From a virus, in IMG/VR virus record IMGVR_UViG_3300029267_001921, positions 1 through 53,515 of that record: DNA of 53,515 bases; one strand, given 5' to 3'. Both the position numbers and the translations under genes were made by a program. How positions within the stretch are numbered: the first letter of the stretch is position 1; each line of letters starts with the position of its first letter. Shown here one piece after another: positions 3,077-46,060 of this stretch. The notes beneath the pieces were generated by a model. It ran no database searches. It was not told the origin of the DNA and saw only the letters and a list, made by a program, of their open reading frames with translations.

Positions 3077-5620
3077 ATGACACAAAGACGCTATGGCCCA
3101 ACATTGGGCGCAGGAACGGTAGTCATAGAAAAGGATGCCGAGAAACAAATCGAGAAGGGCACACTTGGAACGACTACTTACATTGGTATTTTGGAGAAAG
3201 GACCAACAAATCAACTATTCAGAGCAGCGACAAAGACAGAGTTTCTTAGAAAGGCTGGAAGTTATATAGATGATTCTTTGGTTCCTGATGCAGCATTTGA
3301 TTTTTACAAAACAGGTCGTGGGGCTGGAGAACTTTACTTGCTTAGAATCACCGATGGTTCTGAGGTACAATCCGAATTAACAATTAAGGCTCGTAAAAAA
3401 GAGGCATTGATTGCTGATCCAGCACAAGACTGTAGTGGAGCAAATTGTTATCTTCTGGCTGCTGATTATGTAAACATGGGATCGCCAGCAGTTGGCGAGA
3501 GGATGGCTGTATTTAATGATGATGGTTGTACTGATTTTTATCGTATTAAAACAATCACACCAGATACACCAGTTGCAGGAACATATGAGATTGAACTCGA
3601 TGGTGCTGCTTTAGCCGTTTATACGGTTGCATCTGGAACCCAAATTGTGCTTTACAATACAGTTATTAATCCTGATGTTATGAAAGTTAAAGCACATAAT
3701 GGTGGACGTTGGGGTGGAAAACAACAGGTTGAATTCGATCAAGCATTTGGTGTTGGTGGTCTTACCGCTACAACATTCGATACAGGAAAGACAATGTTGC
3801 TGGATGAATTTGTTGGTGCAACACTGAGTTTTGCCGCAATGCCGGGAAAATCATATACAGTTGTTTCCAATGATATTGCTGGTGTTGTTACTGTATCATC
3901 CGATTCCGATATGGCTGCGGATTACGCTCTTACTGGAAGTGCTGATGAGCATTGGAAATTAGAACTATTTAATGAATCAAAAATGGTTGAAATTCTAATT
4001 AAGGACGGTCTACAAAATCCAACCACAGAATTTGGTATGGAAATTTATGTAGATGAGGAACAAGTTCTTAATTATGACGATCTTTCAATGGACCCAACCT
4101 CTGAATATTATTTTGAAAGTCTAATTAATGACGATGAAAATAATGATTTTATTGAGGTTGAGAACCTTTGGACTGGTGGAGTATATGACTGGGTTCGTCC
4201 TGCAAACAGGCATGGGCAGTCAATTGGTTTAACCGATACTGTTCTCACAATTGAAGCCGCAGAAATAGCAGCAGATGGTGGAAATACAGGTGACGGTTAT
4301 GTTGATGCAATAACCTACGGTGGCGATTGTCAACCAGATGTTATTACAGTTGAGTGTACTGACGCAGGGGCGCAAGAATGGAGTTACACCAGTGCAGCAT
4401 TAGGCTTAGTTGTTGGTGCTGTTCCTGTAACCGGAACAACATTTGCTGCACCAAATGAGTTTGGGGTAGGATTTAAAATCATTGCTGGAGCAACTGCATT
4501 TGCGTTGGGTGATAAATTTGTACTTTATGTTAACCCATTAAAACCAAGTGCATTGGTTGGTGGAACAGTATATCCTAATGTTGATACACAGCGTAGACAG
4601 GGATACAAGATCATTTCCAACACATATGACACTATTACAGCTAAACCAAGTGCTGATATGCTAACTGTTGCAGCAGTTGGAAATAGTTACAGAGTAGAGT
4701 TTGCAGAAGACCTTGGTGGCGGGTATGATGGTGTTGCAGACATTCAGGATAACGATTACATTAATGCTCTTGATCCAACAACTTGTGCCATTAATGTATT
4801 GTTTGGAAAGAAAATGGGTCTTGTGAAGATAGCGATGCCGGGTGTTACCTCTACTGCCGTTCAGAAGGCTGGTATTGAGTATGCCGAATCAAGAAATTAT
4901 CAATTCAGGATTGAAATACCATCTAATATTACAACAGATGATGGTGCTGAATCTTATGTAAATGATACTATTGGTCGAAATGACTTTGCGGTTGTATCAT
5001 TTCCGAGTTATATGTATGTGACGCATCCAACCATTAGTGGTTATAAATTGGTTCCAGCAACGGGGGCTATTCATGGAAGGGAAGCACTGTTCGCAAAGAA
5101 TTATAATGGATACCATAAGGCCGCTGCTGGTATTGATGCCACAATTCCACAGTGTATTAAGTTACCAACAGGCGACAGAGAATTGGATGAAGAACTACTA
5201 AATAAACACGGTGTTGGTGTGTTGAAGTTCAAAACTGGAAATTGTATTATTTGGGGTGACAGAACAGTCAGTCTTGATCCAGCATGGAAGTGGAAACATC
5301 AAAGGGAATTGATGTCTTATTACGAGAATGACCTAAGAGAAAGTTTTGATTGGATAATTTTCGCTATTAATGATGAGAAGGAACAGAAAATTGCCCATTC
5401 GGCACTCAGGTCATATTTCGAGCCAGAGTATAAGAAGCGAGCATTACGAGGCGATGAGTTTGCCGATGCGTGTCAAATCAAGGTCGATAATGAGATTAAT
5501 ACTGATGCAACAAGGGCAGCAGGAGATATGCTCAGTGAGGTTTCATTAAGGCTTGCAGATACTGTGGAAAGATTTATAATTACAATGAGCAAAATGGGTA
5601 TCTTTGAAAGCGTTGAATAA
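3077..5620 (+). CDS. Contractile tail sheath protein
   Basis: The 847-residue product is a tail sheath subunit, which polymerises around the tube and contracts during DNA delivery. The N-terminus (residues 1-100) has the pattern 'GTTTYIGILEKGPTNQ' followed by 'AFDFYKTGRGAGELYLLRI', as in sheath proteins where the N-terminal strand leads into the domain that displays subdomain insertions. The C-terminal part has 'NCIIWGDRTVSLDPAWKW', 'YYENDLRESFDWIIF' and a helical end with 'RLADTVERFIITMSK', typical of the conserved sheath core. At 847 residues it is longer than T4 gp18 (659), so the middle probably carries extra surface domains. A strong SD (GAGGAGG) precedes the ATG, and an intrinsic terminator follows. 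Together with the tube gene it shows this is a myovirus. Confidence 0.9.
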   Translation: MTQRRYGPTLGAGTVVIEKDAEKQIEKGTLGTTTYIGILEKGPTNQLFRAATKTEFLRKAGSYIDDSLVPDAAFDFYKTGRGAGELYLLRITDGSEVQSELTIKARKKEALIADPAQDCSGANCYLLAADYVNMGSPAVGERMAVFNDDGCTDFYRIKTITPDTPVAGTYEIELDGAALAVYTVASGTQIVLYNTVINPDVMKVKAHNGGRWGGKQQVEFDQAFGVGGLTATTFDTGKTMLLDEFVGATLSFAAMPGKSYTVVSNDIAGVVTVSSDSDMAADYALTGSADEHWKLELFNESKMVEILIKDGLQNPTTEFGMEIYVDEEQVLNYDDLSMDPTSEYYFESLINDDENNDFIEVENLWTGGVYDWVRPANRHGQSIGLTDTVLTIEAAEIAADGGNTGDGYVDAITYGGDCQPDVITVECTDAGAQEWSYTSAALGLVVGAVPVTGTTFAAPNEFGVGFKIIAGATAFALGDKFVLYVNPLKPSALVGGTVYPNVDTQRRQGYKIISNTYDTITAKPSADMLTVAAVGNSYRVEFAEDLGGGYDGVADIQDNDYINALDPTTCAINVLFGKKMGLVKIAMPGVTSTAVQKAGIEYAESRNYQFRIEIPSNITTDDGAESYVNDTIGRNDFAVVSFPSYMYVTHPTISGYKLVPATGAIHGREALFAKNYNGYHKAAAGIDATIPQCIKLPTGDRELDEELLNKHGVGVLKFKTGNCIIWGDRTVSLDPAWKWKHQRELMSYYENDLRESFDWIIFAINDEKEQKIAHSALRSYFEPEYKKRALRGDEFADACQIKVDNEINTDATRAAGDMLSEVSLRLADTVERFIITMSKMGIFESVE

Positions 5621-5696: not shown

Positions 5697-6140
5697 ATGA
5701 CTTTAAAGAACTTAATTCAACCCAATCATGCTCCGATAAATAAGTATGAGTTATTGGTATTGGGTCTACCAAGCGTACTGTTTACGGATGTAACAGGTAT
5801 TGAGCAGGAAACTCAAAAGGTCACATTGCCAGACCGCACCGCAGCAAGTGGTGGTCAATCGGAACCTTTTGAAGTTGTTGCCAAATTGCCTCTTCACCAT
5901 ACATCAGAGGTGTCGGCCATTGAAGCATGGTATAAAGAAGGGCAAGATCCAGTGACAGCGAATTACAAAAAGACGGGAACTATGATTTACAAAGCAATCA
6001 ATGATACAATTGTGAAGTCATATTCCTTAATTGGTACATGGATATCTAAACTTAAATACCCAGATACCGATATGACTAATGAGGGGGAACCTGCACTATT
6101 AGAGGTCACCTTCACTGTTGATGATTACGATCTACTTTAA
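5697..6140 (+). CDS. Tail tube protein
   Basis: This 147-residue protein directly after the sheath is the inner tail tube subunit, which stacks as hexameric rings around the tape measure. The start 'NHAPINKYELLVLGLPSVLF' (residues 10-29) and a late beta strand pair ('YSLIGTWISKLKYPDTDM', then 'ALLEVTFTVDDYDLL') fit the gp19/XkdM-type tube fold, where the C-terminal strand completes the beta barrel. Its length is typical for T4-type and Gram-negative myovirus tubes (about 140-165). The RBS GGAGGAGG is among the strongest in the window, as expected for an abundant protein. Confidence 0.85.
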   Translation: MTLKNLIQPNHAPINKYELLVLGLPSVLFTDVTGIEQETQKVTLPDRTAASGGQSEPFEVVAKLPLHHTSEVSAIEAWYKEGQDPVTANYKKTGTMIYKAINDTIVKSYSLIGTWISKLKYPDTDMTNEGEPALLEVTFTVDDYDLL

Positions 6141-6304: not shown

Positions 6305-7129
6305 ATGGAAAGCCAAGACAATTCCACAGAAAAAAAGATATTACTCAAAGAACTTCAAAACAACCTACCAGTTGAAGTAAAAGGCAAACAAGATCAATCA
6401 TTCGCATTTAAAGATTGGGGAATGGAAGAGGAAAAGAAGATTGCCAAGTTTAAGGAAAAGAATCCTAGTATGGGTAGGTTTATTACATCCATTTTAAATC
6501 TCATGCTTAAAGATTTGTATGGTGAAGACTTTCAAGGAAAAGAGTATAACCAAAAGATACTAACACTCAATCAAATGCCAGTAGCCAATGTTTTGTATAT
6601 GTATCTTTTCCTACGTTACGATCAATTAGGATCAGATATTAATATTGTTTCTAACTGTCCTTTTTGTAATAACACTATTGAAGACTTTACTGCCAGCCTT
6701 GATGATATTGATGTTGATTGTAAAGTAGGTGATTATAAAGAGGAAGTTGTTTACAAATTAAAGAAACCAGTCACCTTAGATAAAGGTGAGCAGTTAGTAG
6801 AAAACTTAAAAATAGGTATTGCTAAATGGGATGTAATGGAAAAGGCAGATATGCAAAAGGCAGTTGATGAAGCGTATATGAAAGAGACTACGTTTAAGAG
6901 TAGTATTGTTGGTGTAGATGATTCATCTACCCCTGTTGTTATAGAGGAAATCATTAAGAAACTAAAAAAGGTTGATATTGAATTTTTAAATTTGTTTATA
7001 TCTAAACACAATGCAGGCCCAACAATTCAGGCTGAAATGTTTTGTAACCGTTGTAAACAGACATTTTTCAAAGTGATAGATTGGGGATATGAGAGTTTTT
7101 TCGGAATTGGGTCTCTACCTACTCGGTAG
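6305..7129 (+). CDS. Tail-assembly chaperone, zero-frame product (gpG-like position)
   Basis: The 274-residue protein sits between tube and tape measure genes, where tail-assembly chaperones lie in most long-tailed phages. They coat the tape measure and recruit tube subunits and are not kept in the virion. It has four cysteines in two pairs, 'CPFCNN' (about residues 119-124) and 'CNRCKQ' near residues 248-253, which likely bind zinc. It also resembles T4 baseplate-assembly proteins of the gp26 type; I cannot separate these by eye. Its last codons contain the slippery heptamer T TTT TTC at 7096-7102 and a downstream hairpin, so a fraction of ribosomes should make a 329-residue fusion (266 zero-frame residues plus 63). 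The zero-frame product ends eight residues after the shift site. Confidence 0.75.
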   Translation: MESQDNSTEKKILLKELQNNLPVEVKGKQDQSFAFKDWGMEEEKKIAKFKEKNPSMGRFITSILNLMLKDLYGEDFQGKEYNQKILTLNQMPVANVLYMYLFLRYDQLGSDINIVSNCPFCNNTIEDFTASLDDIDVDCKVGDYKEEVVYKLKKPVTLDKGEQLVENLKIGIAKWDVMEKADMQKAVDEAYMKETTFKSSIVGVDDSSTPVVIEEIIKKLKKVDIEFLNLFISKHNAGPTIQAEMFCNRCKQTFFKVIDWGYESFFGIGSLPTR

Positions 7130-7135
7130 AAGACC
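7096..7135 (+). promoter_or_regulatory. Programmed -1 ribosomal frameshift element
   Basis: The heptamer T TTT TTC occupies 7096-7102 in the correct X XXY YYZ register for the zero frame. Seven bases later a hairpin begins: GGTCT and AGACC (7110-7114 with 7131-7135) plus CTACC and GGTAG (7115-7119 with 7125-7129), loop TACTC, one bulged A at 7130. Ten base pairs and a 7-nt spacer are classic for -1 frameshifting. The zero-frame TAG (7127-7129) is within the hairpin, and the -1 frame stays open to 7290. Such frameshifts are conserved in tail-assembly genes preceding tape measure genes. Confidence 0.85.
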
Positions 7136-7293
7136 TGTACGAAGAGGAGTTTTTATTGCTTTATCATATTAATGGAATGACGCCAGATAGAGTTAATAAA
7201 ATGAGTTATAAAGAAAGGCAATGGTGGTTAATTAGATTGGATAAACAATTTAAAAAAGAAAAAGAGGCAATGGAGAAATCAACCAAAGCATAA
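7102..7293 (+). CDS. Tail-assembly chaperone, -1 frame extension (T part of GT)
   Basis: This frame has no usable start of its own. It is entered by the -1 slip at 7096-7102 and encodes 63 residues beginning RNWVSTYSVEDLYEEEF and ending at TAA 7291-7293, 12 nt before the tape measure ATG. The sequence looks like a real protein domain: acidic/aromatic helix 'EDLYEEEFLLLYHI', then 'MSYKERQWWLIRLDKQF' and a lysine-rich tail. In lambda-like systems the T domain of GT contacts tube subunits. An internal ATG could in principle start a short product, but it has no good RBS. Confidence 0.8.
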   Translation, partial: RNWVSTYSVEDLYEEEFLLLYHINGMTPDRVNKMSYKERQWWLIRLDKQFKKEKEAMEKSTKA

Positions 7294-7305: not shown

Positions 7306-9675
7306 ATGGCTTTCAATTTATCTGCGATTTTAACTTTCAGTCAAAAAGGATTCCAAAAAGGATTAGGTCGAGCGTCAAAGAGTTTTGATAAATTTAATAC
7401 CAGAGTAAAAAAGGCAGGCGCACAGGCTAGAGCAATGGGTCCAGGGTTGCGGAATGTTGGATTAATGGGAACTGGTATGGCTGCTGGAATTGGGGTTGCA
7501 GTTAAATCCTATATGGATTTCTCACGTCAGATGGATAGTGTTGCAGCAAAAATGAGTGATGGAAAGCAACATTATAACGAGATGTCTGATTTAGCAAAAC
7601 AAATGGGTTCAACAACCATTTTTACATCTAAGCAAGCAGCACAAGGATTGGAATACTTAGCCCTTGCTGGGTTTGGTGCTAAAGACGCAATGGGCGTCTT
7701 GCCTACCCTCCTTTATACTGCTGGTGCAGGAGCGTTAGAATTAGGTGCAGCATCGGATATTATTACAGACAGTATGAGTGCATTGGCTCCAATTATGGGT
7801 AAGTTTGGTGATAAGACAAAGCAAGCCACAGCACTTTCCGATATGATGGCGTTAGCACAGGCAAGAAGTAATACCAACATTGAGCAATTAGGTGAAGCCA
7901 TTAAATACGGTGGTGGTGCCCTTGCTAATCTTGGTATTCCATTACATGAAGTTATTGGTTCAATGGGTGCGTTAGCGGATGCTGGTATTAAAGGCTCAAT
8001 GGGTGGTACAGCATTAGTTAATATGATGAATAAGTTAGCTAAACCTTCATCGAAGGCAAAGGGATTAATGGAAAAGATGGGTATTTCGATGGAGGATATT
8101 AAATATCGTGCCGCAGACGGAACGATGAGATTAAAATCAATGTCTGAAGTGATGTCAGTATTTGAAAAGGCATTGAAAAAGAATCCAGACCTATTAAATA
8201 GGGCTGGTGTGGCTACAGAAATATTTGGATTGAGAGGCCAAAGAGCATTCTTCGCTTTACAAAATAAAGGTGCAGCGAATTTGAATAAACTATACTCTGA
8301 GTTAGACAAGAGTGAAGGTGCAGCGAAGAAAATGTATACAGATATGACTGATAACTTATATGGTGCGTGGGAAAGTATTAAGTCTGCTGTTTCAGGTTCA
8401 ATATTGAACCTTGGTGAATTATTTTCAAAAATGTTTGACGCAAAAGGCGCATTACAGGCTATTACCAAACCTATTTCAGATTTTGCTATGGCAATAATGA
8501 CTGTAATGAAACCAACAGAGGATTGGTCTGAAGCACAGAAAAGACTGATGCAGACAGGATTAGGTCAGTTTGTGTTGGGTATGGTTGATGGATTTAAACT
8601 CGTAAAGCAAACCGTAGTTGGTGTAATAAATATATTTAAAGGAATGATTAAGACAGCATCAAAAAGTGGATTTAATTTTCGATCATTTGCAAAGATAGCA
8701 ACAATGGTAGCAATGGCTATAGCTGCTATTGGTCCACCTATATTAATGATTGGTGGTGCTCTTTTATTATTGACACCTGTTGTGTCAGCAGTAATAAGTG
8801 GAGTAGGATTGCTTGGTAGTGTTTTGGCTCTATTAGCAAGTCCGATTACATTAGTTATTGCTGGTGTTGCTTTATTAACTTATGGTTTATATAAACTAAT
8901 GGGTGGATGGGAAGGTATAACAAGTGCTGTAAAAACATTTGCGGCTGGTTTTTGGGAAGCATTTAAACCAGCATGGGAAGCAATTAAAGTATCCCTTATG
9001 CCAACAATCAATATGCTTAAAGAAACATTTAGTGAATTGTTTAAAACATTAGGGTTTGGTAGTAAAGGTGCAAGTAGTGATTTAACAAGTTTTGGTCAAA
9101 CAGTAGGAAAGGTTGTGGGATTTATTGCGAAGGTATTAGTATATCCAATTAAAGCAATAGCCCATTTAATAAATTTATTTGCAAAATTAGCAACATTTGG
9201 TGCTGGTGTTGCAAAAGATGTTTTGGGTTGGTTTGGTTTTGGGAAAGGAAAGAAAGCACCAATTGAAATGGGTGAAGTCGCTAAAGGAATGGGTGAACCT
9301 GTTACACCACCAGAAGGAAAGAAAGCAACAGTTATTGATTTTGAAAAGGCAAGAACTCGCCTTAGGCCAGAAGAACAAGTAGGATTAACACCAGAGGAAA
9401 GAGAGAGAAGAAGGCAAATGTCTGTTGCTGAACAGGTTAATAAACAGCATTTGGCTGCAACACAGGTTAGAGTTGCACCATCAAATGTAAACGTAATAAC
9501 ACCAGCAGCACAAACAACTACACCACAAGTGAATATACAGGTGAATAATGAGGTGGATGAAAACGGAATAAGATCAATGGTTCAGAAATCAGAACGACAT
9601 GAAAGCAATAAACAAGGAACGCAATTGCAGACAACTTCGGCAGAACGTCAATCACAAGTGAGTTATGGGAGGTAG
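7306..9675 (+). CDS. Tail tape measure protein (TP901-like)
   Basis: This 789-residue protein sets tail length and is the scaffold inside the tube. The N-terminal third matches the PhageMin_Tail pattern: 'SYMDFSRQMDSVAAKM', 'LAKQMGSTTIFTSKQAAQGL' and 'LEYLALAGFGAKDAMGVLP', as in TP901 family tape measures. Residues about 460-530 hold strongly hydrophobic stretches (around 'MVAMAIAAIGPPILMIGGAL'), seen in many tape measures that later contact the host membrane. The C-terminal 130 residues are charged and Gln/Asn-rich. At roughly 1.5 angstrom per residue the tail would be near 120 nm (inference). It follows the frameshifted chaperone gene and overlaps nothing; RBS is AGAGGA. Confidence 0.88.
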   Translation: MAFNLSAILTFSQKGFQKGLGRASKSFDKFNTRVKKAGAQARAMGPGLRNVGLMGTGMAAGIGVAVKSYMDFSRQMDSVAAKMSDGKQHYNEMSDLAKQMGSTTIFTSKQAAQGLEYLALAGFGAKDAMGVLPTLLYTAGAGALELGAASDIITDSMSALAPIMGKFGDKTKQATALSDMMALAQARSNTNIEQLGEAIKYGGGALANLGIPLHEVIGSMGALADAGIKGSMGGTALVNMMNKLAKPSSKAKGLMEKMGISMEDIKYRAADGTMRLKSMSEVMSVFEKALKKNPDLLNRAGVATEIFGLRGQRAFFALQNKGAANLNKLYSELDKSEGAAKKMYTDMTDNLYGAWESIKSAVSGSILNLGELFSKMFDAKGALQAITKPISDFAMAIMTVMKPTEDWSEAQKRLMQTGLGQFVLGMVDGFKLVKQTVVGVINIFKGMIKTASKSGFNFRSFAKIATMVAMAIAAIGPPILMIGGALLLLTPVVSAVISGVGLLGSVLALLASPITLVIAGVALLTYGLYKLMGGWEGITSAVKTFAAGFWEAFKPAWEAIKVSLMPTINMLKETFSELFKTLGFGSKGASSDLTSFGQTVGKVVGFIAKVLVYPIKAIAHLINLFAKLATFGAGVAKDVLGWFGFGKGKKAPIEMGEVAKGMGEPVTPPEGKKATVIDFEKARTRLRPEEQVGLTPEERERRRQMSVAEQVNKQHLAATQVRVAPSNVNVITPAAQTTTPQVNIQVNNEVDENGIRSMVQKSERHESNKQGTQLQTTSAERQSQVSYGR

Positions 9676-13489: not shown

Positions 13490-13882
13490 ATGCCAATAGG
13501 ATTATCAGTTCCAGTATATGTTAACAAAGGCGGTGGTGCGCAAATGCAAAAGGAAGAAAATCAATTAGATAAATTGGTTGTACTTGCGCTCCAAGAGGGT
13601 GAAGATGACAATCCATTCCAAGAATTGGGTTTAGATCCTCGTATTATATATAGGGTGAATGATGACGCTGCTAAATTTGATGCCAGAGATGATATTGAAA
13701 ATATATTGAAATCGTTTAAAAATAGACTAGAATTAGGACCAGATGGAGTTGTGATTAATAAGGAAGATAATACACAACAAACAGAAGAAGGCGAACTGCA
13801 TGTTTCATTTGAGTATATTAATTTAGATGTAAATGAAGCAAAAGAATTTGCAGCACCGTTTGAAGAATTAGGAGATAAATAA
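13490..13882 (+). CDS. Baseplate wedge protein, gp25/gpW-like
   Basis: This 130-residue protein has the order and size of gp25-like baseplate proteins, which start sheath polymerisation at the baseplate. After a short N-terminus ('IGLSVPVYVNKGGGAQM'), it has 'NQLDKLVVLALQEGEDDNPF', then 'DDIENILKSFKNRLELG' and a strand 'HVSFEYINLDVNEAKEF'; this mirrors the gp25 fold, where a helix pair is followed by a beta hairpin. The RBS is TAGGAGGACGTT. It ends in TAATG with the gpJ-like gene, the usual gp25-gpJ-gpI order. Confidence 0.75.
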   Translation: MPIGLSVPVYVNKGGGAQMQKEENQLDKLVVLALQEGEDDNPFQELGLDPRIIYRVNDDAAKFDARDDIENILKSFKNRLELGPDGVVINKEDNTQQTEEGELHVSFEYINLDVNEAKEFAAPFEELGDK

Positions 13883-16341
13883 TGGCTGGAACATTAATAG
13901 AGATACCGACTATTGATTATTCCGATATGTATTATCCTGACATACTGAAAATGTTAATTCAGTATAGAAGAGAACATGCACCGGAAGTAACAGAAGAAAA
14001 TGAATATGAACCATATGTACAGTTAGAAAGAGCGTATGCGCTGGTCGGGCATTTGAATAATGTTCTACTTGATGTTGTAGCAAATGAGAGCCTTTTGCCT
14101 ACGGCTAAGTTATTGGAATCAGTAAGAAATCATCTAAGATTAATTGATTATCATTTAGCTTTGGCTACTCCTGCGAGTACAGATGTCATATACGAATTAT
14201 CAAAAGTATTCACTGCCACAACTGATTTTGTTCCTCAAAATTCTCAATCAGGGACTGAGGAAACAGAAGAGAGAGCATCGGTATTATTTGAGGCAGTGGA
14301 AAATCATACAATTGATAGAACAGATGAAGTGAGTTACGTATTCAGTTGGAATTCTGGATCAATCGAAATTGTCAATAATACATTTGATGCTGGCGACACA
14401 ATAATTATAAACACAGCCAACTTTATATATGCAACTCATTTCACCGCTGGTATAGACACAGCCGCAACAGCACAAAATTTAGCAGACGCAATAAATACAT
14501 CAACAAATGATAATATATTTGGAAAAATAAAGGCTATCGTATATGGTAGCAAAATCTCATTGGTCAACCTTGACGACTCAACTGAAATAACAGTAACAAA
14601 AATAGACGGTGTTACATTAAACTTCAATATTAGTAGTGGCTCTTTTTCTTCGGATAACGCAGCAACAGCGAATACTGATGCTGTATTCTTCACTGTATTC
14701 ACCGATCCTAAACCCGGTGATTGTCTATATTTCGGCCATAAACACGTTCAAGAAGATAAAATTGTAATGAGTTTCAATGTACCAGCATCAGGTATCACAG
14801 GTGTTTGGGAATATTATGATGGTGAATTAGAAGATGTTAATCCAACTACTGTAACCAATCTTGGTTCAAATTTAAAATTTAATGTATCAGAATTACTTCC
14901 AGATGGAACAGACTGCACAGGAACAATTGTAAGAGTTAAATTACAAGAAACATCTGCGTTTGAGGACTGTGTATCATATTATGATGCAGGGACAAACTAT
15001 ATAGAAACAACAGAATTGTTAGGTCAGGTTTCGCCAAGTACAGATGAAGAGGATTATGTTGTTGGTTCCAATTGGCAATTACTTCCTGAGATAGAAGATA
15101 AAACATTGGATATGACAACAGATGAGGAAATAAATTTTCAATTGCCAGAAGATGTGGATATGGAATGGGAATCCAGAACGATTAATTCTCTGTATAGTGC
15201 TTACTTTCTGCGTTACAGAATTATTTCAATAGTTGCTCCTGTTTCTGCTGTGATAGATCGTATTCTAATTGATGAAGGCGCACAATATTTAAAAGTGTTA
15301 GTATCACAAGGTGAAACAAGAACAGAAGATCCACTTGGTAGTTCTGATGGGACATCAAACCAAGAATTTGCTTTAACATATGCTCCTTTGATTCCTGATT
15401 CATTAGTTATTGAGATTGATGAAGGAACAGGATTCACAGCATGGAGTGAAAAGACAAATTTCCTTTCTTCAAATTCCAATTCAAAAGATTATGTTTTGGA
15501 AGTGAAGGCTGATGATACAGCAATAGTAAAATTTGGAGATAATATTAGAGGAAAAATACCTGCTGCTGGCGTAGATAACATAAAGGCTACATATAAAACA
15601 GGTGCAGATGAGGATGGAAATGTTGGATCAAGTACAATTACAGTCAATAAGGCTGGTATTTCCTTTGTAAATAGACTATGGAATCCAAGGCAAGCAACAG
15701 GCTGGACAGCGAAAGAAGGGTCAACAGAAGAGGATTTAGCCAGAGTAAAAATAGAAGGTCCAGCATCTATTAGAGTATTAAGTAGAGGAATAACCGCTTA
15801 TGATATTGAATACTTAACCAGCAACTATACAAACACTGCGGGTTCCAAAATTGTATCCAGAGCAAAGGCGGTTGAAGAAACATTTGGAGTAAAAACAATA
15901 GAGAATATAGTTGTTGGGCAGGGTGGAAATCAGTTATCCGCATCAGAAAGAAATGAAATTGAAACATATTTTAATGGCGATAGAACACAGGGTATAAATG
16001 GTGTATTAGTTACTAATCATGAGGTTACAGTGGTTAATTACACCAAAAAGATAATTGATGTAACTGCCACTGTATATGGTGGAAATCGTACAGAAATTGA
16101 GAATGCGGTTAGGAATTTTATTCATCCAGAGGCTAAATATTCCGATGGTGTAACATATAGGTGGGAGTTTAGTACAGCAGACACTATACAATATTTTAGG
16201 GTTGCATTATTGTATGCTATCATTTACGAGGTTGATCCTTTAAATATTTCTAACGTGGTTATTAGTCAACCAGCAAGTGATATAGCATTTGATTTAAGAG
16301 AACTTCCCTACGCAGGGACAGTGAGTATAACGGTGGTTTAA
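13882..16341 (+). CDS. Baseplate wedge protein, gpJ / gp6-like
   Basis: The 819-residue product is a baseplate J-like protein, the wedge that forms the ring around the hub. The N-terminus carries the helical LxxLVxxLNNVLLD-type segment ('ERAYALVGHLNNVLLDVVAN', about residues 49-68) seen in J proteins that span large ring bundles. The C-terminal half has the conserved J core: 'SIRVLSRGITAYDIEYLTSN' (about 632-651), 'IVSRAKAVEETFGVKTIENI', 'IDVTATVYGG' and the end 'ISNVVIS'. Residues about 120-480 are extra beta-rich material compared with P2 gpJ (302 residues), likely surface domains. It is coupled at both ends (TAATG). Confidence 0.8.
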   Translation: MAGTLIEIPTIDYSDMYYPDILKMLIQYRREHAPEVTEENEYEPYVQLERAYALVGHLNNVLLDVVANESLLPTAKLLESVRNHLRLIDYHLALATPASTDVIYELSKVFTATTDFVPQNSQSGTEETEERASVLFEAVENHTIDRTDEVSYVFSWNSGSIEIVNNTFDAGDTIIINTANFIYATHFTAGIDTAATAQNLADAINTSTNDNIFGKIKAIVYGSKISLVNLDDSTEITVTKIDGVTLNFNISSGSFSSDNAATANTDAVFFTVFTDPKPGDCLYFGHKHVQEDKIVMSFNVPASGITGVWEYYDGELEDVNPTTVTNLGSNLKFNVSELLPDGTDCTGTIVRVKLQETSAFEDCVSYYDAGTNYIETTELLGQVSPSTDEEDYVVGSNWQLLPEIEDKTLDMTTDEEINFQLPEDVDMEWESRTINSLYSAYFLRYRIISIVAPVSAVIDRILIDEGAQYLKVLVSQGETRTEDPLGSSDGTSNQEFALTYAPLIPDSLVIEIDEGTGFTAWSEKTNFLSSNSNSKDYVLEVKADDTAIVKFGDNIRGKIPAAGVDNIKATYKTGADEDGNVGSSTITVNKAGISFVNRLWNPRQATGWTAKEGSTEEDLARVKIEGPASIRVLSRGITAYDIEYLTSNYTNTAGSKIVSRAKAVEETFGVKTIENIVVGQGGNQLSASERNEIETYFNGDRTQGINGVLVTNHEVTVVNYTKKIIDVTATVYGGNRTEIENAVRNFIHPEAKYSDGVTYRWEFSTADTIQYFRVALLYAIIYEVDPLNISNVVISQPASDIAFDLRELPYAGTVSITVV

Positions 16342-18215
16342 TGGCAAAGATAAATCAAAATTTTCCGTTTGATATATTTCGGTTCATTCATAAACCGATT
16401 AGAACCGCAGATAAAGACAGGGATAACTTTCTTGAACGCTACCTCTATGGTCCTCAAATTATATGGGAGGGAATGCGTGATAAGATAGAGGATATTTCTA
16501 AAATTGTGAATCCTGAAACCTGTCCAACTGATCTATTACAGTATTTAAAAGATATAGTAGGGCTAACAAGGGACTTAAGAAACATAACAGATGCGCTATC
16601 TGAGGATGATTTAAGAAAGGTTATTTTACTAGCCGTTCCTTTATGGAAAACCAAAGGTATAGAGGTAGGGCTAAAGAATATAATTAAACTGTTCACTGGA
16701 TTCAATGCCCGAATTTTTAACTGGTTTGATTATAGGATGATAATTGGTGAGAAAGCAATTGGTGAGGAACAGTTAGGTGAGGATGCTTGGATTATTTCAA
16801 GGCCAGGAGTTGCTGGTACAACCCCATTAGGTGAAGTTCAATTACTTTTACAATTTAATACGTTTGATGAAATAGAGGATGGTTCACTATTTCAAAATCC
16901 TATTGTTCCTTACGGAACATATGTATTTCAAAGTGGTGGTCCTTTTGCTACAAGTGATTATTATTTATTTGGAAATCCTTTTTATCTTCATATTCCACAT
17001 AGATCAATATTTGATTTTTCAGGGCATTGGACAATTGAAGGATATGTTATAACAAATACAACCCAAATGATTCCTTTATTTCATAAATATGACTCTACCC
17101 TAAACAAAGGCGTTAAATTAGAACTCAATACAACAACAAGTGAAGTGACATGGACAATTGCAGATGGAACAACAACACAAACTCAAACATGGTCTGCTGG
17201 GGTTCCATTAGCAAATGGTTTATTTCATCATGTTGCTTGGGTTGTTGATTGGGATGAAGATACAGACGGCGAAACATCTGTCTGGGTTGACGGCAATAGA
17301 ATTGGAAATGTTGATCTATCTGGTGCGTTTGTTAGGCAGGGAATCAATAATAGTGAAGATATATTTGTTGGTGAAGATGCACTCGGTGGAACAGGCATCT
17401 ACGCCGGAATAGACGGAATAAGGGTTACAAAAGACGTTAGATATGCTGTCACGTTAGCAACAATTACATCTCCGGGAGTTAATTTTGTTGAGTATCAAGA
17501 GGAACAATTAGATGAATTCCAAATAGATGTAAGGGTTGTTGATGATGGAACACTTGATAGAACAATATTGAAGCGTATTTTAAATCTTATGCGACCTGTT
17601 TCAGAAAGAATAAATATTCTTTATATTGATTTCTATGATGAATTTGAAGATGGAAAAGGTCAATATAATACAATTTCAGGTAGTGCATATGTTGAAAAAA
17701 CAGATGATGTTTATTATTTTAAACTACCTGAATTATCATTAGAACACGCTGATGTATTAGGTGCATCTGATTGGAAAAACTATTTAGTGCAACATAGGTG
17801 TACCATTTATTCAGGTGATGAATTTGAAATAAGGTATTTAATTCAAGATGTTGATAACTACTATGCGTTTAGAGTGAATTCAAATACAAAGAAAGCACAT
17901 ATGGAAAGAGTTGTTGGGGGAGTGAGAACAGCATTAGCAAGTTCAGTGGACATTGATATTGAAACCGCTAATCTTCCAATTTATATTCCATATTATGTTT
18001 TTATGGTGACTTGTTTTAGGAACGAAACAACAGGTGTTACAACATTAAAGGCGTATATAGATTCCAATAAAATATTTGATGTGGATGATACTAATTTTGA
18101 AAAGGGTACATTTGGACTATATACATACGCTGGAACAACGGTCTGGTGCAGCGAAGCAGAGATGTTTCAAATGCCACTCGACCACGATAGAATTGATCCT
18201 AATAGTGAATTTTAA
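16341..18215 (+). CDS. Baseplate gpI-like protein with LamG-type domains
   Basis: Residues 1-145 match the gpI-type tail protein: 'FLERYLYGPQIIWEGMRDKI', 'CPTDLLQYLKDIVGLTRDL' and 'RKVILLAVPLWKTKGIEVGL' are characteristic of the family that attaches tail fibres to gpJ. Residues about 225-375 form a LamG/concanavalin-like beta sandwich ('HWTIEGYVITNTTQMIPLFH', 'FHHVAWVVDWDEDTDGETS', 'VWVDGNRIGNVDLSG'). Residues about 430-624 look like a second jelly-roll ('YLIQDVDNYYAFRVNSNTKK', 'LKAYIDSNKIFDVDDTNF'). The gpI-LamG fusion implies that the baseplate edge itself may bind glycans. Its start overlaps the gpJ stop. Confidence 0.78.
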   Translation: MAKINQNFPFDIFRFIHKPIRTADKDRDNFLERYLYGPQIIWEGMRDKIEDISKIVNPETCPTDLLQYLKDIVGLTRDLRNITDALSEDDLRKVILLAVPLWKTKGIEVGLKNIIKLFTGFNARIFNWFDYRMIIGEKAIGEEQLGEDAWIISRPGVAGTTPLGEVQLLLQFNTFDEIEDGSLFQNPIVPYGTYVFQSGGPFATSDYYLFGNPFYLHIPHRSIFDFSGHWTIEGYVITNTTQMIPLFHKYDSTLNKGVKLELNTTTSEVTWTIADGTTTQTQTWSAGVPLANGLFHHVAWVVDWDEDTDGETSVWVDGNRIGNVDLSGAFVRQGINNSEDIFVGEDALGGTGIYAGIDGIRVTKDVRYAVTLATITSPGVNFVEYQEEQLDEFQIDVRVVDDGTLDRTILKRILNLMRPVSERINILYIDFYDEFEDGKGQYNTISGSAYVEKTDDVYYFKLPELSLEHADVLGASDWKNYLVQHRCTIYSGDEFEIRYLIQDVDNYYAFRVNSNTKKAHMERVVGGVRTALASSVDIDIETANLPIYIPYYVFMVTCFRNETTGVTTLKAYIDSNKIFDVDDTNFEKGTFGLYTYAGTTVWCSEAEMFQMPLDHDRIDPNSEF

Positions 18216-18241: not shown

Positions 18242-21200
18242 ATGTCAACGGGTGATCGCAAAGTAAATATATTTTTAAAGAAATTCTTAACCCAGCAACA
18301 CATTACAGACAACTTTCTTGATTACTTACACGAATTAATCATGGAAGACCATCAAAAGTTAGTGCCGAGTTCAGGTGTGTATTCTTATCCTGTTACGGCT
18401 AAATCCACGCTGGTTGATACAATTGATTTTTTAACGCCGGGTGAGATTAACGCAGGTGATGGGAACGGACCACAATTGGAAGCAGATGATGGACACGGTA
18501 GGATACTTAAACTTGATGATCTGTTGAGACAACAAGTTTTAGTTCCGAATGATGTTGGTGTCAAGTATTATTCAGGTGTAAGGTTTAATTACTATCCCGT
18601 TGATACAGAAATAAATGTTAGAACAGGTATTATAAAATGGTCATTATACAATGAAGCAATTGGTGAGAGAGGTGAACCTAATTTTGTAAGTTATTATGGT
18701 TCTCAACTCCAAATGCAAGTGGACAATATTTGTAAGGACGTTAATCAACATGGTCGTGTTGTTCGTGTATGGTTGAAAACACCTGTATCACAGGCATCTG
18801 GGGATGTATATGAAGAAGTTTCAATTATACCTCAATCAATTGTATTCGGGCATGATGGTGGATTAAATTATTTTGATGTACCAAATGAAATGAGTGGTTA
18901 TTTTGCCGCCGCACAATCAGTTACAATAGATCAAGTTCCAACTAATCCTGTAACAACTACAGTTACTTTTGTTGGAGCCGATGATTCGGGTGGTTCTGGA
19001 TATACAAGAATCACAGTACCGATTGATTTAAGTGTTTATACTGTCGCCACCAGTTCATTTGTGCTGTCTGGAAATAATGTCATTAATTTAGTTGGAACAT
19101 TAGGACAGAGTTCTAATCCATCCATTGATCCAACTGATTATGAAATATTTCTTTATGGTATAACAATCACAACACAAGATTTAAGATTGGATGAATATTA
19201 TGCGTACCTATTGAACTATACAGGAACAGGTACAGGAAACAACCCTGGATCGTTTGATTTCTCAGATCAAGTTGAAGTACCAAATAATTTTTCAAGTATC
19301 TCTATCATATTAAGTAATTTTAAAAAGTATCAGATTCAACGTAATGCTTTCATACTGAGGGGTGGAGGGCAATTCAAATTTGAATCTGGAACTCTTGACT
19401 GGAATCAGGAGTTCCAGATAGTTAACCCCTTTAGAGGACTATATTCTATTGCCGCAAGTAGTTTAGGCGGCATTGTAAATGACGATATTCTTTATACCAA
19501 AATTTATATTGATCAACCAGTTGTAATTGACGGGAATGCAAGTGGAGAAATTTGGATAGAGGATACAACAGATTTCAGTGATAACGATGCGGTTATTATA
19601 GGTGATAATGATTCAAATAGGGTGACTGGTTACATAATGGGCGCACCCGGATTAGAAAAAATTGTGGTTGATGATGGATTAGGAACACCACTTGATCTAT
19701 CTGGATTCACAACACTAAAGGGCGCATGGGTTCAAAGAACAAATATCAGCCTACAGAAAGCACAAATTAATGAAGGTGATTTAAGGCCAGCAATATTCGG
19801 TGAACTTGATGAAGATGTTGCTGTAATTGCCGTTGCTCACAATAATGTTTTAGTATTTAAAGACGGCGTTCTGAGATTAGAGGACGGTGATGTTGGTGAA
19901 ATATCAAATCTTCCAAGTGGATTTACTTGGGTAAACAATATAACTGAACTCACTGATTCTATTACTAAAACACAGGATAAAGGAATCGGAGTTCTTTCTC
20001 CGGGTACATATACGCCCACCGTACAAATTGACTATAATAAGAATTTAGCATGGATAGGACTTTCCGATTGGACAATTATTCAAGGAAATCTTGCCACACC
20101 AGTTATGAAGATTCAATATGATGCAACAACAACTGATTCATATATGAGGGTTGAACTCAATCGGTTAATTATTCAAAATAATGGTGCTGGTGATGTAATT
20201 GAGATTGATAATACTGGTGCAACAAAGGGTATGGAAATTGTTCTTGATGGCTGTGTTCTTTTGGGGTCAGGTGGAAATGTATTAAAGGTCACTCATAGTG
20301 AATCCAGCCAATGGATTAAAGTTAGAATACTTAATTCAAGATCACAGGATTTTGAAGGCAGTATAGTATTTGAATCACAGAATAATAGTGATGAATTATT
20401 TATTAAGAATGTAAAATTAGCGGCTGGCGAAACAATCACATTTGGGAAAGCCGCATTTGATCCCACTTCTACGTGTACTATTCATGATTGTTGGGTTGAT
20501 CATGTTGATGCGGTTGGTGCAGGAACAAACAAATCAATCAATATAATTAATTCGTATTCTTATGAGGATAATAAACGAATTGATCTAAATGGATCTGGAA
20601 ACGCTACATTTAACGTAAATGTTGATTTAGTTGATCTTCAGGATTTCATTAATTATCAAACCAGAGTGAACGGATTAATATTTAGAGGTGGTGGACAAAT
20701 AGATTTCCTATCGAGTACATTTAGTTGGACTGCTGACTTTGAAATATTCGATCCGTTTTATGGAATATCAATTATTCCTGCTGGTTCAATCCCTGCGATT
20801 GTAAATAATGATGTATTTTATACCAAATTATACAGGCCACAGGAAGTTGTTGTAGATGGAAATCCTGTTGGTCAAATAGGCGTAAAAGATACCTCTGATT
20901 TTAACGATAATGACACAGTAGTTGTTGGTGATGCAAATTCAACACAATTAACTGGATATGTAATGGGCGTACCTGCTGGTGGTATTATAACAGTAGATGA
21001 CGGTGCAGGGAATCCATATGACCTTTCTAATTTCACAAAATCACAAGGTGCGTGGATTCAACGAACAAATATAGCGATGTTAAAAGGTACACAAAACGTA
21101 GGTGATTTAAGGCCGGATTATCTGCGTAAAACAGACAGTAGGATTTATGTAATTGCTGTCTGTAATGGAAATAATATTGTAGATAGAAACGGTGAAATAT

Positions 21201-22405
21201 ATACAAGACAATGGGTATATGAGGAGCCTCTTATTGTAACATCACCTGTTGATATAGATGACGCTATTACTCTCCCTGTTGATAGTAGGAACGGAAACGC
21301 TGTTAAATATTATAGAAACGGTACTGGCGATTTACAAATGTTTGTGAATGGAAATCGTTGGTTTACTGAACAAGTTCTTGTTGTCTCTTCATTCACCCCA
21401 ACATTTTATGATGTCGGTACAGGTGTTGTAACTGTACCTGACGCTGTTGATTTATCAAATGTTAGGCGTGAAGATCTTTTCTATGACGCACTAGGAGCGG
21501 AATTTACCATATTTGGAAATATAGATAATACGCTTGGAAACAAACAATTTAGGATAGCATCAGGTCAGGTTGTAAATCTTGGTGCTGGCGCATATATTGT
21601 CAGACAAGATTATGCTGAAACAGGAGTAGCAGAACAATTTGTAACAACCATACAAGCAAAAAGAAGAATACCAATAAATGCAATCGTTGCTTTCCGCATT
21701 ATGCCATTCGGAACAAGTGGAGGAGGCGGTGGAGGAGGCGGTGGGGGTGGAACCCTACAAGACGCCTATGTTGCGGGAAGTACAATGACAATTGCAGTTG
21801 GGAATCCTGTTATAGTGAATGGTCCGGGTGGTCAAAAGTTATTTCAATTTAATGGAGACATAGGTGTAACTGGTATTATTGATCCTGAAGGTCTTGAATT
21901 TGCAAGTCAAGTTACTAACCCTGACCCATCTAAGAATTTGGTTTATTTTAAAAACACAGGTGAACTTATTTTTAACAACTTAGTATCAGGATTGGAAGAA
22001 GTAATCAATGCTGAATCTACTGCTGTTAAAGAGTATACAAATAATCAAGGTTCACCAATATCAAAAGGTCGTGTTGTAAGAAAGTCAGCAATAGGGTTTA
22101 TAAATTATGCTGATTGGACTGCGGATGTTAATTCCAGAGCCATAGGAATCTCTATGGATAATATAAATGATGGATCAGATGGATTGGTTAAAAAATTTGG
22201 TTATATAGAACAAGGTGTCATAACAGCGGATGATTTCACTGAGGCAATGTTGCCAGCAGACGGAGCAAGGATATGGTTAGCTGATGCAGATGGAAAGATG
22301 ACTGTAACACCACCAACAACTGGGAGCGGAAACTGGGAAGTATATATGGGTATATGGGATGATGGTGGTTTAAACTTACAAATTGCCTTGATCGGGCAAG
22401 CATAG
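18242..22405 (+). CDS. Very large tail fibre/adhesin with duplicated domain and polyglycine hinge
   Basis: The 1387-residue protein follows gpI and is the likely main fibre. Its first part (1-360) is mixed beta. Residues 370-516 and 812-958 are two copies of a 147-residue domain, each beginning LRGGGQ or FRGGGQ and ending GDLRP. Between them, residues about 560-800 resemble a pectate-lyase-like beta helix ('SPGTYTPTVQIDYNKNLAWI', 'MEIVLDGCVLLGSGGNVLKV'). A run of 11 glycines (1160-1170) acts as a hinge before a C-terminal tip of about 215 residues ('PISKGRVVRKSAIGFINYAD'), similar in style to phage fibre tips. The RBS is AAGGAGAG. Receptor binding is inferred. Confidence 0.78.
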   Translation: MSTGDRKVNIFLKKFLTQQHITDNFLDYLHELIMEDHQKLVPSSGVYSYPVTAKSTLVDTIDFLTPGEINAGDGNGPQLEADDGHGRILKLDDLLRQQVLVPNDVGVKYYSGVRFNYYPVDTEINVRTGIIKWSLYNEAIGERGEPNFVSYYGSQLQMQVDNICKDVNQHGRVVRVWLKTPVSQASGDVYEEVSIIPQSIVFGHDGGLNYFDVPNEMSGYFAAAQSVTIDQVPTNPVTTTVTFVGADDSGGSGYTRITVPIDLSVYTVATSSFVLSGNNVINLVGTLGQSSNPSIDPTDYEIFLYGITITTQDLRLDEYYAYLLNYTGTGTGNNPGSFDFSDQVEVPNNFSSISIILSNFKKYQIQRNAFILRGGGQFKFESGTLDWNQEFQIVNPFRGLYSIAASSLGGIVNDDILYTKIYIDQPVVIDGNASGEIWIEDTTDFSDNDAVIIGDNDSNRVTGYIMGAPGLEKIVVDDGLGTPLDLSGFTTLKGAWVQRTNISLQKAQINEGDLRPAIFGELDEDVAVIAVAHNNVLVFKDGVLRLEDGDVGEISNLPSGFTWVNNITELTDSITKTQDKGIGVLSPGTYTPTVQIDYNKNLAWIGLSDWTIIQGNLATPVMKIQYDATTTDSYMRVELNRLIIQNNGAGDVIEIDNTGATKGMEIVLDGCVLLGSGGNVLKVTHSESSQWIKVRILNSRSQDFEGSIVFESQNNSDELFIKNVKLAAGETITFGKAAFDPTSTCTIHDCWVDHVDAVGAGTNKSINIINSYSYEDNKRIDLNGSGNATFNVNVDLVDLQDFINYQTRVNGLIFRGGGQIDFLSSTFSWTADFEIFDPFYGISIIPAGSIPAIVNNDVFYTKLYRPQEVVVDGNPVGQIGVKDTSDFNDNDTVVVGDANSTQLTGYVMGVPAGGIITVDDGAGNPYDLSNFTKSQGAWIQRTNIAMLKGTQNVGDLRPDYLRKTDSRIYVIAVCNGNNIVDRNGEIYTRQWVYEEPLIVTSPVDIDDAITLPVDSRNGNAVKYYRNGTGDLQMFVNGNRWFTEQVLVVSSFTPTFYDVGTGVVTVPDAVDLSNVRREDLFYDALGAEFTIFGNIDNTLGNKQFRIASGQVVNLGAGAYIVRQDYAETGVAEQFVTTIQAKRRIPINAIVAFRIMPFGTSGGGGGGGGGGGTLQDAYVAGSTMTIAVGNPVIVNGPGGQKLFQFNGDIGVTGIIDPEGLEFASQVTNPDPSKNLVYFKNTGELIFNNLVSGLEEVINAESTAVKEYTNNQGSPISKGRVVRKSAIGFINYADWTADVNSRAIGISMDNINDGSDGLVKKFGYIEQGVITADDFTEAMLPADGARIWLADADGKMTVTPPTTGSGNWEVYMGIWDDGGLNLQIALIGQA
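19349..19789 (+). repeat. Copy 1 of 147-residue internal fibre duplication
   Basis: This segment encodes residues 370-516 of the large fibre. It pairs with 20675-21115, which has the same 441-nt length without net indels. Shared anchors are RGGGQ, NDxxxYTKxY, GDxNSxxxTGYxMGxP, GAWxQRTNI and GDLRP. The copies are clearly diverged, so the duplication is old. Confidence 0.85.
20675..21115 (+). repeat. Copy 2 of 147-residue internal fibre duplication
   Basis: This segment encodes residues 812-958 of the large fibre and is the second copy of the domain at 19349-19789. In both copies the domain follows a helical segment of about 20 residues that could trimerise and precedes a beta-rich unit, so the whole 'helix plus domain' block seems to be the duplicated module. 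Confidence 0.85.
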
Positions 22406-22413
22406 GAGATGTT

Positions 22414-22779
22414 ATGAAAAATAAAGGAAAAAATTATGAAGTAAAGAAATCACAAGAGGCTGTCGATAAAGAAATTGACTTAGGTGAGCCTGAATCGAAA
22501 CAAGAACAAATCGAGGATGAACAACAAGAGACAAAACAACAAGAGACAAAACAAAACAACCAACCACAAGAGAAATCTTCGATTTATTTTGACAAAGAAA
22601 AGGGAATAGTTATAGTGACAGACCCAGTAAAAAAGGGTGTTTTGAGTAATCTTATTGGGACTTTAAGTCATACTTGTAAGGAATATAAGAAACCTATCGA
22701 AGTGTTGTTGGAAAATAAATTTGATGTTAAAATATCATTAAGTATTTTGCCTAAATCTGGTGAAATAGATAAATCGTAA
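22414..22779 (+). CDS. Small Gln/Glu-rich protein, possible fibre chaperone
   Basis: I do not recognise this 121-residue protein. Residues 1-55 are highly charged and low-complexity ('EQIEDEQQETKQQETKQNN', with a tandem QQETK), probably disordered. Residues 60-121 form a small folded part ('SSIYFDKEKGIVIVTDPVKK', 'PIEVLLENKFDVKISLSI'). It is tightly linked to the large fibre (8-nt gap, SD overlapping the fibre stop), and small genes directly after fibres often encode assembly chaperones. That role is inference from position. Confidence 0.65.
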   Translation: MKNKGKNYEVKKSQEAVDKEIDLGEPESKQEQIEDEQQETKQQETKQNNQPQEKSSIYFDKEKGIVIVTDPVKKGVLSNLIGTLSHTCKEYKKPIEVLLENKFDVKISLSILPKSGEIDKS

Positions 22780-44858: not shown

Positions 44859-44888
44859 TGAATAAAAATGGAATTTAGGAGGGAACTT

Positions 44889-45827
44889 ATGGATTCAACA
44901 GGATGGTATATAGATAGCACAGGCACTTCCTCCACTGAGTTAACAACGGCTGGCACAATTTCGGTTTCAACCACACCAAATATAGTTGTTGCCAGTGATG
45001 ATTTCACAACGAGGGGTGGGCTGAAGGGAAAACTCCAATATAAACAAAATAATGGAGCAAAACGTTTACCCATTAGTCCAAAGGTGTATTTTAATTTTGT
45101 GAAGATGAAATTAAATAAGTTGGAGATGACAAGGTTAAAGGAACGGCTTGGAAAACTCCAAAAATTAGTACAGGAATCAAAAGAGTTAGGGCAGCACACA
45201 CTCCATGAACACACAGCCCTAATGTTAGCGGTTGTGGCAAGGGAGAGTGAAGCATACGCATGTGGATTCAAATATTGGGTGAAAAAGAATGTTATAACCA
45301 AATATATCAGCAACGTGAAGGATAAGGTTATAAAATTTGATAAATTTGAGGAGTTTCCAAGAACCGTACCAGTGGGTGTGAGAAATAAGATTAGAGCGGT
45401 TAAAAAGAAGGAATTGTTTGATGAATTGTGGGTTTTGTATACAGACTACACAGGGGAGAAATTAAAGAGTAATAAACAAAAGATTAAGGAAAAGGATCCT
45501 ATTTTGTTTGGAAAGTATGCCTATCAAAATGATAGGTTTTATTTTATCGCAGATTGGGAGGATGAGTATTGTGATTTAACCTTAGATGAAATGGTTAAAG
45601 TGGTAGAAAGGGAAAGTAATTTAACCGCTGTGAATGAAGTGCCAGAGGTTGATGAGGATTTAATAAAAGAGATTAGAAGACAGGTTATGAGGAGACACAA
45701 ACGACTTGAGGGCACAAATCAGGAAAATTATAAGGAGTTAATGAAGGAGGAAGATGAAGAAAAGAAAGTTGAACCTGTTGTTGTACAACCAAAAAAGAAG
45801 GGATTTTGGAAACGGTTATGGTCATGA
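44889..45827 (+). CDS. Hypothetical protein of replisome operon
   Basis: I choose ATG 44889 because TTTAGGAGGGAACTT lies directly upstream; the earlier in-frame ATG (44868) has no SD. The product is 312 residues. The first 50 residues are Ser/Thr/Gly-rich ('DSTGTSSTELTTAGTISVST') and probably disordered; the rest is charged and helical ('KMKLNKLEMTRLKERLGKL'), with 'FYFIADWEDEYCDLTLDEM' and a basic end 'KKKGFWKRLWS' that could be amphipathic. I recognise no family. It lies between the helicase and a set of zinc-containing proteins preceding primase. Confidence 0.6.
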   Translation: MDSTGWYIDSTGTSSTELTTAGTISVSTTPNIVVASDDFTTRGGLKGKLQYKQNNGAKRLPISPKVYFNFVKMKLNKLEMTRLKERLGKLQKLVQESKELGQHTLHEHTALMLAVVARESEAYACGFKYWVKKNVITKYISNVKDKVIKFDKFEEFPRTVPVGVRNKIRAVKKKELFDELWVLYTDYTGEKLKSNKQKIKEKDPILFGKYAYQNDRFYFIADWEDEYCDLTLDEMVKVVERESNLTAVNEVPEVDEDLIKEIRRQVMRRHKRLEGTNQENYKELMKEEDEEKKVEPVVVQPKKKGFWKRLWS

Positions 45828-46060
45828 AAGATTTGAATAAAGTATTGAATAAAAAGAACATTACAAATGAGAGAAGGTGGCCTGTTTGTGCTGTATGTGG
45901 AGAACCAATATCCAAAATGGAAACCAGTTATGTGGATGCAGAAAAGAAAGTGATTATAAAAATGTGGTGTCATGGTGATGTGGAAATTGTGGAGAATACG
46001 GATATGAAAATGAATGGAATTGATGATTGTATACCAGAGAAGGCATTTGAGAAGAAATGA
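45824..46060 (+). CDS. Small zinc-finger-like protein
   Basis: I choose ATG 45824 (ATGA overlap with the previous stop) over a TTG at 45806. The 78-residue product has 'WPVCAVCGEPISKMETSY' and 'IIKMWCHGDVEIV', giving a probable zinc site from C-x2-C and C-H. It is coupled to the next gene by a four-base overlap. The function is unknown, but it belongs to a block of zinc-binding proteins next to primase. Confidence 0.6.
   Translation: MKDLNKVLNKKNITNERRWPVCAVCGEPISKMETSYVDAEKKVIIKMWCHGDVEIVENTDMKMNGIDDCIPEKAFEKK

Follow-up and report, generated by a model that had tools for sequence, protein, structure and literature searches.

The tail-assembly chaperone gene of this virus almost certainly yields a second, longer protein by a -1 slip at the heptamer T TTT TTC, the reading that best explains the sequence features overall. 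The window (the whole stretch of 53,515 nucleotides that was analyzed, taken from an IMG/VR virus record) carries this gene within a contractile-tail module comprising sheath, tube, tape measure, baseplate wedge and Tail_P2_I-type genes (Table 1). The first-pass annotation had proposed a programmed -1 frameshift in the chaperone, and comparison across 42 loci strongly supports that proposal, with heptamer, register, stem and fused domain all conserved. Every coordinate that it gave was borne out on recheck, from the zero-frame end at 7129 (TAG, 7127-7129) and the register of the heptamer, (AG)T TTT TTC, to the 63-residue extension that stops 12 nt before the ATG of the tape measure gene at 7306. 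In the local sequence ...GAG AGT TTT TTC GGA..., TTT and TTC are zero-frame codons 265 and 266 (Phe265-Phe266). The -1 frame is closed by a TGA at 7090-7092, is open from 7093 and runs to a TAA at 7291-7293. The residues after the slip would be RNWVSTYSVEDLYEEEFLLLYHINGMTPDRVNKMSYKERQWWLIRLDKQFKKEKEAMEKSTKA, giving a predicted long form of 329 residues.

Table 1. Coordinates of the chaperone locus and neighboring tail genes in the window
Feature	Position	Strand	Remarks
Tail sheath protein (contractile tail)	3077-5620	+	phrog_23, E 2e-23; query for relatives
Tail tube protein (presumed to interact with the extension)	5697-6140	+	phrog_45 tail tube, E 1.2e-4
Short chaperone form TAC-N, T4 gp26-type (PF12322)	6305-7129	+	274 aa; ATG 6305; conserved Cys118/121/247/250
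GGGGAT, Shine-Dalgarno-like purine run, candidate stimulator	7078-7083	+	upstream of slip site
Slippery heptamer T TTT TTC	7096-7102	+	in register in 42/42 distinct loci
-1 frame extension, C-terminal domain of long form TAC-NC	7102-7293	+	63 residues + stop
Stem-loop, putative slip stimulator	7109-7136	+	encloses zero-frame stop
Zero-frame stop TAG	7127-7129	+	ends 274-codon ORF
Tape measure protein, presumed chaperone client	7306-9675	+	phrog_1533, E 3.9e-78; PF10145, E 1.6e-37
Baseplate wedge	13882-16341
Tail_P2_I-type protein	16341-18215

Relatives were obtained through a sheath-protein scan of viral contigs, which yielded 54 related loci; once duplicates and one truncated contig had been removed, 42 distinct chaperone loci, including the window, formed the comparison set. 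In nearly all of the sheath-derived loci, the sheath gene is followed downstream by a chaperone homologue, and a tape measure homologue lies 3' of the extension in 38 of the 42. The chaperones share a median pairwise identity of only 36% and fall into 24 clusters at 50% identity; thus, the set does not represent one copy counted repeatedly. Scans of viral contigs with chaperone, tape measure and wedge protein queries returned no relatives, and the sheath alone succeeded; the chaperone query found no matches in this pattern-based scan because the sequence is too divergent. Searches of cultured phages with three chaperones gave no credible homologue, and scans of bacterial and archaeal genomes gave no relative. 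The sheath of the clade, at the sensitivity used, likewise has no match in cultured phages or sequenced prokaryote genomes. These sheath relatives (L002-L055) are an uncultured group of contractile-tailed phages.

The first-pass annotation had pointed to relatives as the place to look for conservation of the heptamer, and there it is kept in register in all 42 distinct loci, always near the zero-frame stop. The sequence is TTTTTTC in 41 loci and TTTTTTT in one, and every copy opens into the same -1 frame domain, with a -1 frame length of 58-83 codons. The sole exception (L035:13174-13180) reads T TTT TTT on a contig of 68% G+C and is still slippery. The codon that precedes TTT is AGT, AAT, GAT, TCT, CAT, GGT or GCT; the residue therefore varies, while the third base is always T. 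From per-locus codon usage, the chance of a T before TTT in all 42 loci is about 10^-22 and that of TTT as the first Phe codon in all 42 is about 10^-18, both figures being upper limits of significance since shared ancestry is ignored. Other Phe-Phe pairs in the long open reading frames (ORFs) of these loci are encoded as T TTT TTC in 13 of 285 cases (4.6%), against 41 of 42 at the site, so the need to encode Phe-Phe fails to explain the heptamer. Among the 15,484 codons of the window's main genes, just two in-register copies of T TTT TTC are present.

Of 109 in-register heptamers of the form X XXY YYZ, only three open a -1 frame well beyond the gene stop. Elsewhere in the window, ORF 44868-45827 has close to its end an in-register A AAA AAG, from which an 89-codon -1 frame (45791-46060) opens; this frame overlaps ORF 45806-46060, a frame that would otherwise need a TTG start. 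ORF 18242-22405 likewise has an in-register T TTA AAC close to its end, and a -1 slip there would enter the frame of ORF 22414-22779 (22369-22779), which has its own ATG; this is probably a chance occurrence. Separately, a DNA helicase ORF at 39786-42038 is split by an intein that contains a homing endonuclease of the HNH type (PF14890, PF13392).

The extension is conserved in 42 of 42 loci, with a mean column identity of 39% in the alignment. Read from the slip point, the alignment follows the pattern FFRxFxP...LxEExFxLTYxxxGxT...M...ERxWxLxRLxKQ, in which the first residues, FFR, are conserved. AlphaFold modeled the extension with a pLDDT of 87.6 and three confident helices (residues 11-24, 30-35 and 38-64). 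The extension (7109-7293) also bears a weak likeness to DUF6760 (PF20546), which three of the 42 members match at up to 0.1, the best at 0.0041; DUF6760 may be the same C-terminal chaperone domain.

The leading alternative is that the extension is a separate small gene, translated by re-initiation after the stop at 7129, so that no frameshift is needed. The first-pass annotation had held that the segment 7130-7305 would have no gene without the shift. That statement overlooked a TTG at 7156 preceded by the Shine-Dalgarno-like GAGGAG at 7144-7149, whose good 6-nt spacing would allow a product of 45 residues; moreover, in the records of the cultured relatives LuckySocke, GiJojo and BRock this domain is annotated as a gene of its own. 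The relatives of the window nevertheless speak against such a start. According to the start list inspected, 20 of the 42 loci lack any ATG, GTG or TTG in the extension frame over the stretch from heptamer to +66; of these 20, 13 also lack one upstream in the open frame. Initiation at the TTG would also drop the conserved FFR...LxEE segment and cut into the first predicted helix, GAGGAG serves as the codons of the conserved Glu-Glu, and an independent gene would leave both the invariant heptamer and the stem unexplained. The TTG-started gene was thus rejected, and we consider re-initiation very unlikely compared with a -1 slip.

Downstream of the heptamer, the best local hairpin is GGGTCTCTACC TACTC GGTAGAAGACCT (-14.8 kcal/mol), which begins 6-7 nt past the heptamer and has its arms at 7109-7119 and 7125-7136. 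It contains ten G-C or A-U pairs, a closing G-U pair and one bulged A, in agreement with the 10-bp, one-bulge hairpin described in the initial reading. Each sequence was folded against two controls, namely dinucleotide shuffles and a redrawing of synonymous -1 frame codons by local usage. The latter was run because the codons of the FFP (TTC TTC CCG) and REE (CGG GAA GAA) motifs in the arms can be reverse complements, so that some stem could arise from the protein alone. Against the shuffles, the 50 bases after the heptamer gave a mean z of -2.24, with 31 of 42 loci below -1, while other offsets gave about 0 to -0.4, apart from +6, which covers the same region. Under the synonymous-codon control (42 loci), the mean z was still -1.85, with 30 of 42 below -1 and the window at -5.2; mean values were -0.1 to 0.2 for 3' windows and -0.25 to 0.9 for the small number of upstream windows that could be used. 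Redrawing only the bases past the zero-frame stop gave a mean z of -1.25.

One fixed stem laid across the alignment gave 67% paired cells, above any slide of that stem, with modest covariation. Several of its pairs do not form in all loci, some of which pair with a 3' arm lying closer, and RNAalifold on the MAFFT alignment found no consensus structure, as the 3' arm occupies one of two positions depending on the locus. At alignment columns 16 and 54, T-A is exchanged jointly for C-G in 14 sequences. In a few loci, for example L008, L024 and L053, the stem is weak or absent. These comparisons support a stem that has been selected as an RNA structure beyond the needs of the protein in most members of the group, although not in all. 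The notion that the heptamer and its complementary arms are a coding coincidence of Phe-Phe codons and FFP...REE motifs, for which the reverse-complementary codons speak, is contradicted by the synonymous-codon control, by the joint exchange at columns 16 and 54 and by the rarity of T TTT TTC at other Phe-Phe pairs, and its probability is close to nil.

Equally improbable is transcriptional slippage, in which the polymerase rather than the ribosome would stutter on the T-run: stuttering can occur on homopolymers and would give a similar product, but the run comprises just six Ts, few for slippage of this kind, and the ribosome is favored both by the strict register of T TTT TTC in the zero frame and by a stem spaced as at ribosomal slip sites.

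Upstream of the slip site, 31 of the 42 loci have a Shine-Dalgarno-like 4-mer 5-14 nt ahead of the heptamer, with a gap mostly of 8-9 nt. GGAG, GGGG or GGGA is found at a conserved Trp codon (TGG) in 30 of 42 loci, compared with 855 of 3397 Trp codons generally. Other bacterial frameshift sites have Shine-Dalgarno stimulators, and the run before the heptamer resembles them. This run is thus a possible stimulator of slipping, although protein conservation alone could also account for it.

By its profile matches, the window chaperone is a member of the T4 gp26/gp51 family. It matches PF12322 (T4_baseplate) with an E value of 1.2e-5 (25.5 bits; gathering cut-off, 24.5), and the same profile matches 38 of the 42 chaperones (best, 4.6e-15). 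Hits to the profile phrog_150, 'baseplate hub', were obtained for 36 of the 42 chaperones (best, 1e-17), the window chaperone taken alone falling below the phrog_150 match level at 0.001. The AlphaFold model of the chaperone (pLDDT 91) resembles T4-like baseplate hub proteins in a Foldseek search of a viral structure library, including gp26 of Aeromonas phage 25, with BCD7 as the nearest structural relative; a sequence search of solved structures and Foldseek against the PDB gave no meaningful match. The first-pass annotation had described an unusual Zn-type chaperone. The CxxC...CxxC pairs behind this description (Cys 118/121 and 247/250) are indeed kept in 39-40 of 42 loci, but they have counterparts in T4 gp26 and gp51; the appearance of a metal site is therefore a family trait, and the family is a known one. 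A second, T4-like chaperone copy was sought in the window, and none was found.

The same comparison bears on the extension. PF12322 covers the whole of T4 gp26 but only residues 1-201 of the 249 in T4 gp51, leaving a C-terminal tail of 48 residues. Alone, this tail aligns weakly with MTPDRVNKMSYKERQWWLIRLDKQ of the extension (hhalign probability 8.6%, E 0.0039). In one relative, the extension gives a hit to phrog_634, the T4 gp51-type 'baseplate hub assembly catalyst', with an E value of 1.2e-5. The extension is the counterpart of the additional C-terminal tail of T4 gp51, and T4 gp51 is, by its domain composition, a natural fusion of the same two parts as the predicted long form of the window.

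From these features we infer the following course of translation. Most ribosomes would terminate at 7129 and release the short TAC-N, of the T4 gp26 type, while a minority would slip at 7096-7102, T TTT TTC being re-read as TTT TTT in the -1 frame. Slowing by the stem-loop at 7109-7136 would promote the slip, perhaps with aid from the upstream Shine-Dalgarno-like run, and slipped ribosomes would continue to 7293, producing the 329-residue TAC-NC. By analogy with lambda gpG/gpGT, many short copies and a few long ones would then coat the tape measure protein, and the extension of the long form would recruit tail tube subunits.

Parts of this arrangement have precedents. Vladimirov, Gautam and Davidson reportedly found in 2022 (Virology 566:9) that frameshifting is conserved in several T4-like groups, with genes 26 and 51 as the T4 pair, and the window's case fits this description. 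T4 gp26/gp51 and the T4-like TAC-N/TAC-NC share with the window the family (PF12322, phrog_150), the short/long pair and, in relatives, the position before the tape measure gene. T4 itself has two genes, with gp26 as the short form and gp51 as a ready-made fusion with a C-terminal tail, whereas a single gene with a slip site is present in the window. Compared with lambda, the window differs in that its protein matches the T4 family and in its slippery site, which in lambda is G GGA AAG. Lambda gpG/gpGT is otherwise similar to the window, in that a low-level -1 slip near the chaperone end gives a minor long form just before the tape measure, and such frameshifting is conserved in long-tailed phages except T4 (PMC5009743). 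Two further papers refer to Vladimirov et al. 2022: in PMC10885494, some T4-like phages are described as having instead a pair of genes, a short one and a long one, and in PMC12846349, poly-T -1 signals, as in the window, are reported in the TAC-N genes of T4-like phages. The chaperone type and -1 frameshifting on poly-T in some T4-like groups are already published. PMC12846349 also describes the TAC locus of Vandenendeviridae and Andersonviridae (phage Adele), myoviruses in which a conserved poly-T -1 shift (GTTTTT, given for Vandenendeviridae) ends TAC-N and the extension precedes the tape measure gene, as in the window. They represent another phage lineage with another motif, and that account describes no selection test of a stem.

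A further variant is found in the cultured Streptomyces phages LuckySocke (L057:7941-9048), BRock (L060:3935-5018) and GiJojo (L061:1923-3030). Similar to the window, these phages have a PF12322/phrog_150 chaperone, the homologous extension domain and a long gene at the tape measure position; unlike in the window, the extension is read in +1 (or -2) relative to the chaperone. It follows a conserved ATCCTGTTTC, at which the shift would occur, and its frame stays open as far back as the chaperone gene; the records list it as a hypothetical gene in its own right. An unannotated +1 or -2 frameshift is likely in all three phages. On balance we favor the view that at least three routes to the long form exist within PF12322 (a -1 slip on T TTT TTC, a +1/-2 shift at ATCCTGTTTC and the two genes of T4), the mode having switched while the two-form product was kept.

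To what was known of chaperone frameshifting, the present analysis adds a deeply sampled clade of uncultured myoviruses whose 42 loci, with one heptamer, form one of the cleaner sets of sequence evidence. It also closes an annotation gap, as gene finders miss the long form in this clade and probably in the cultured Streptomyces phages as well. The findings support the view that long tails require a short/long chaperone pair, whereas the route to that pair is free to change.
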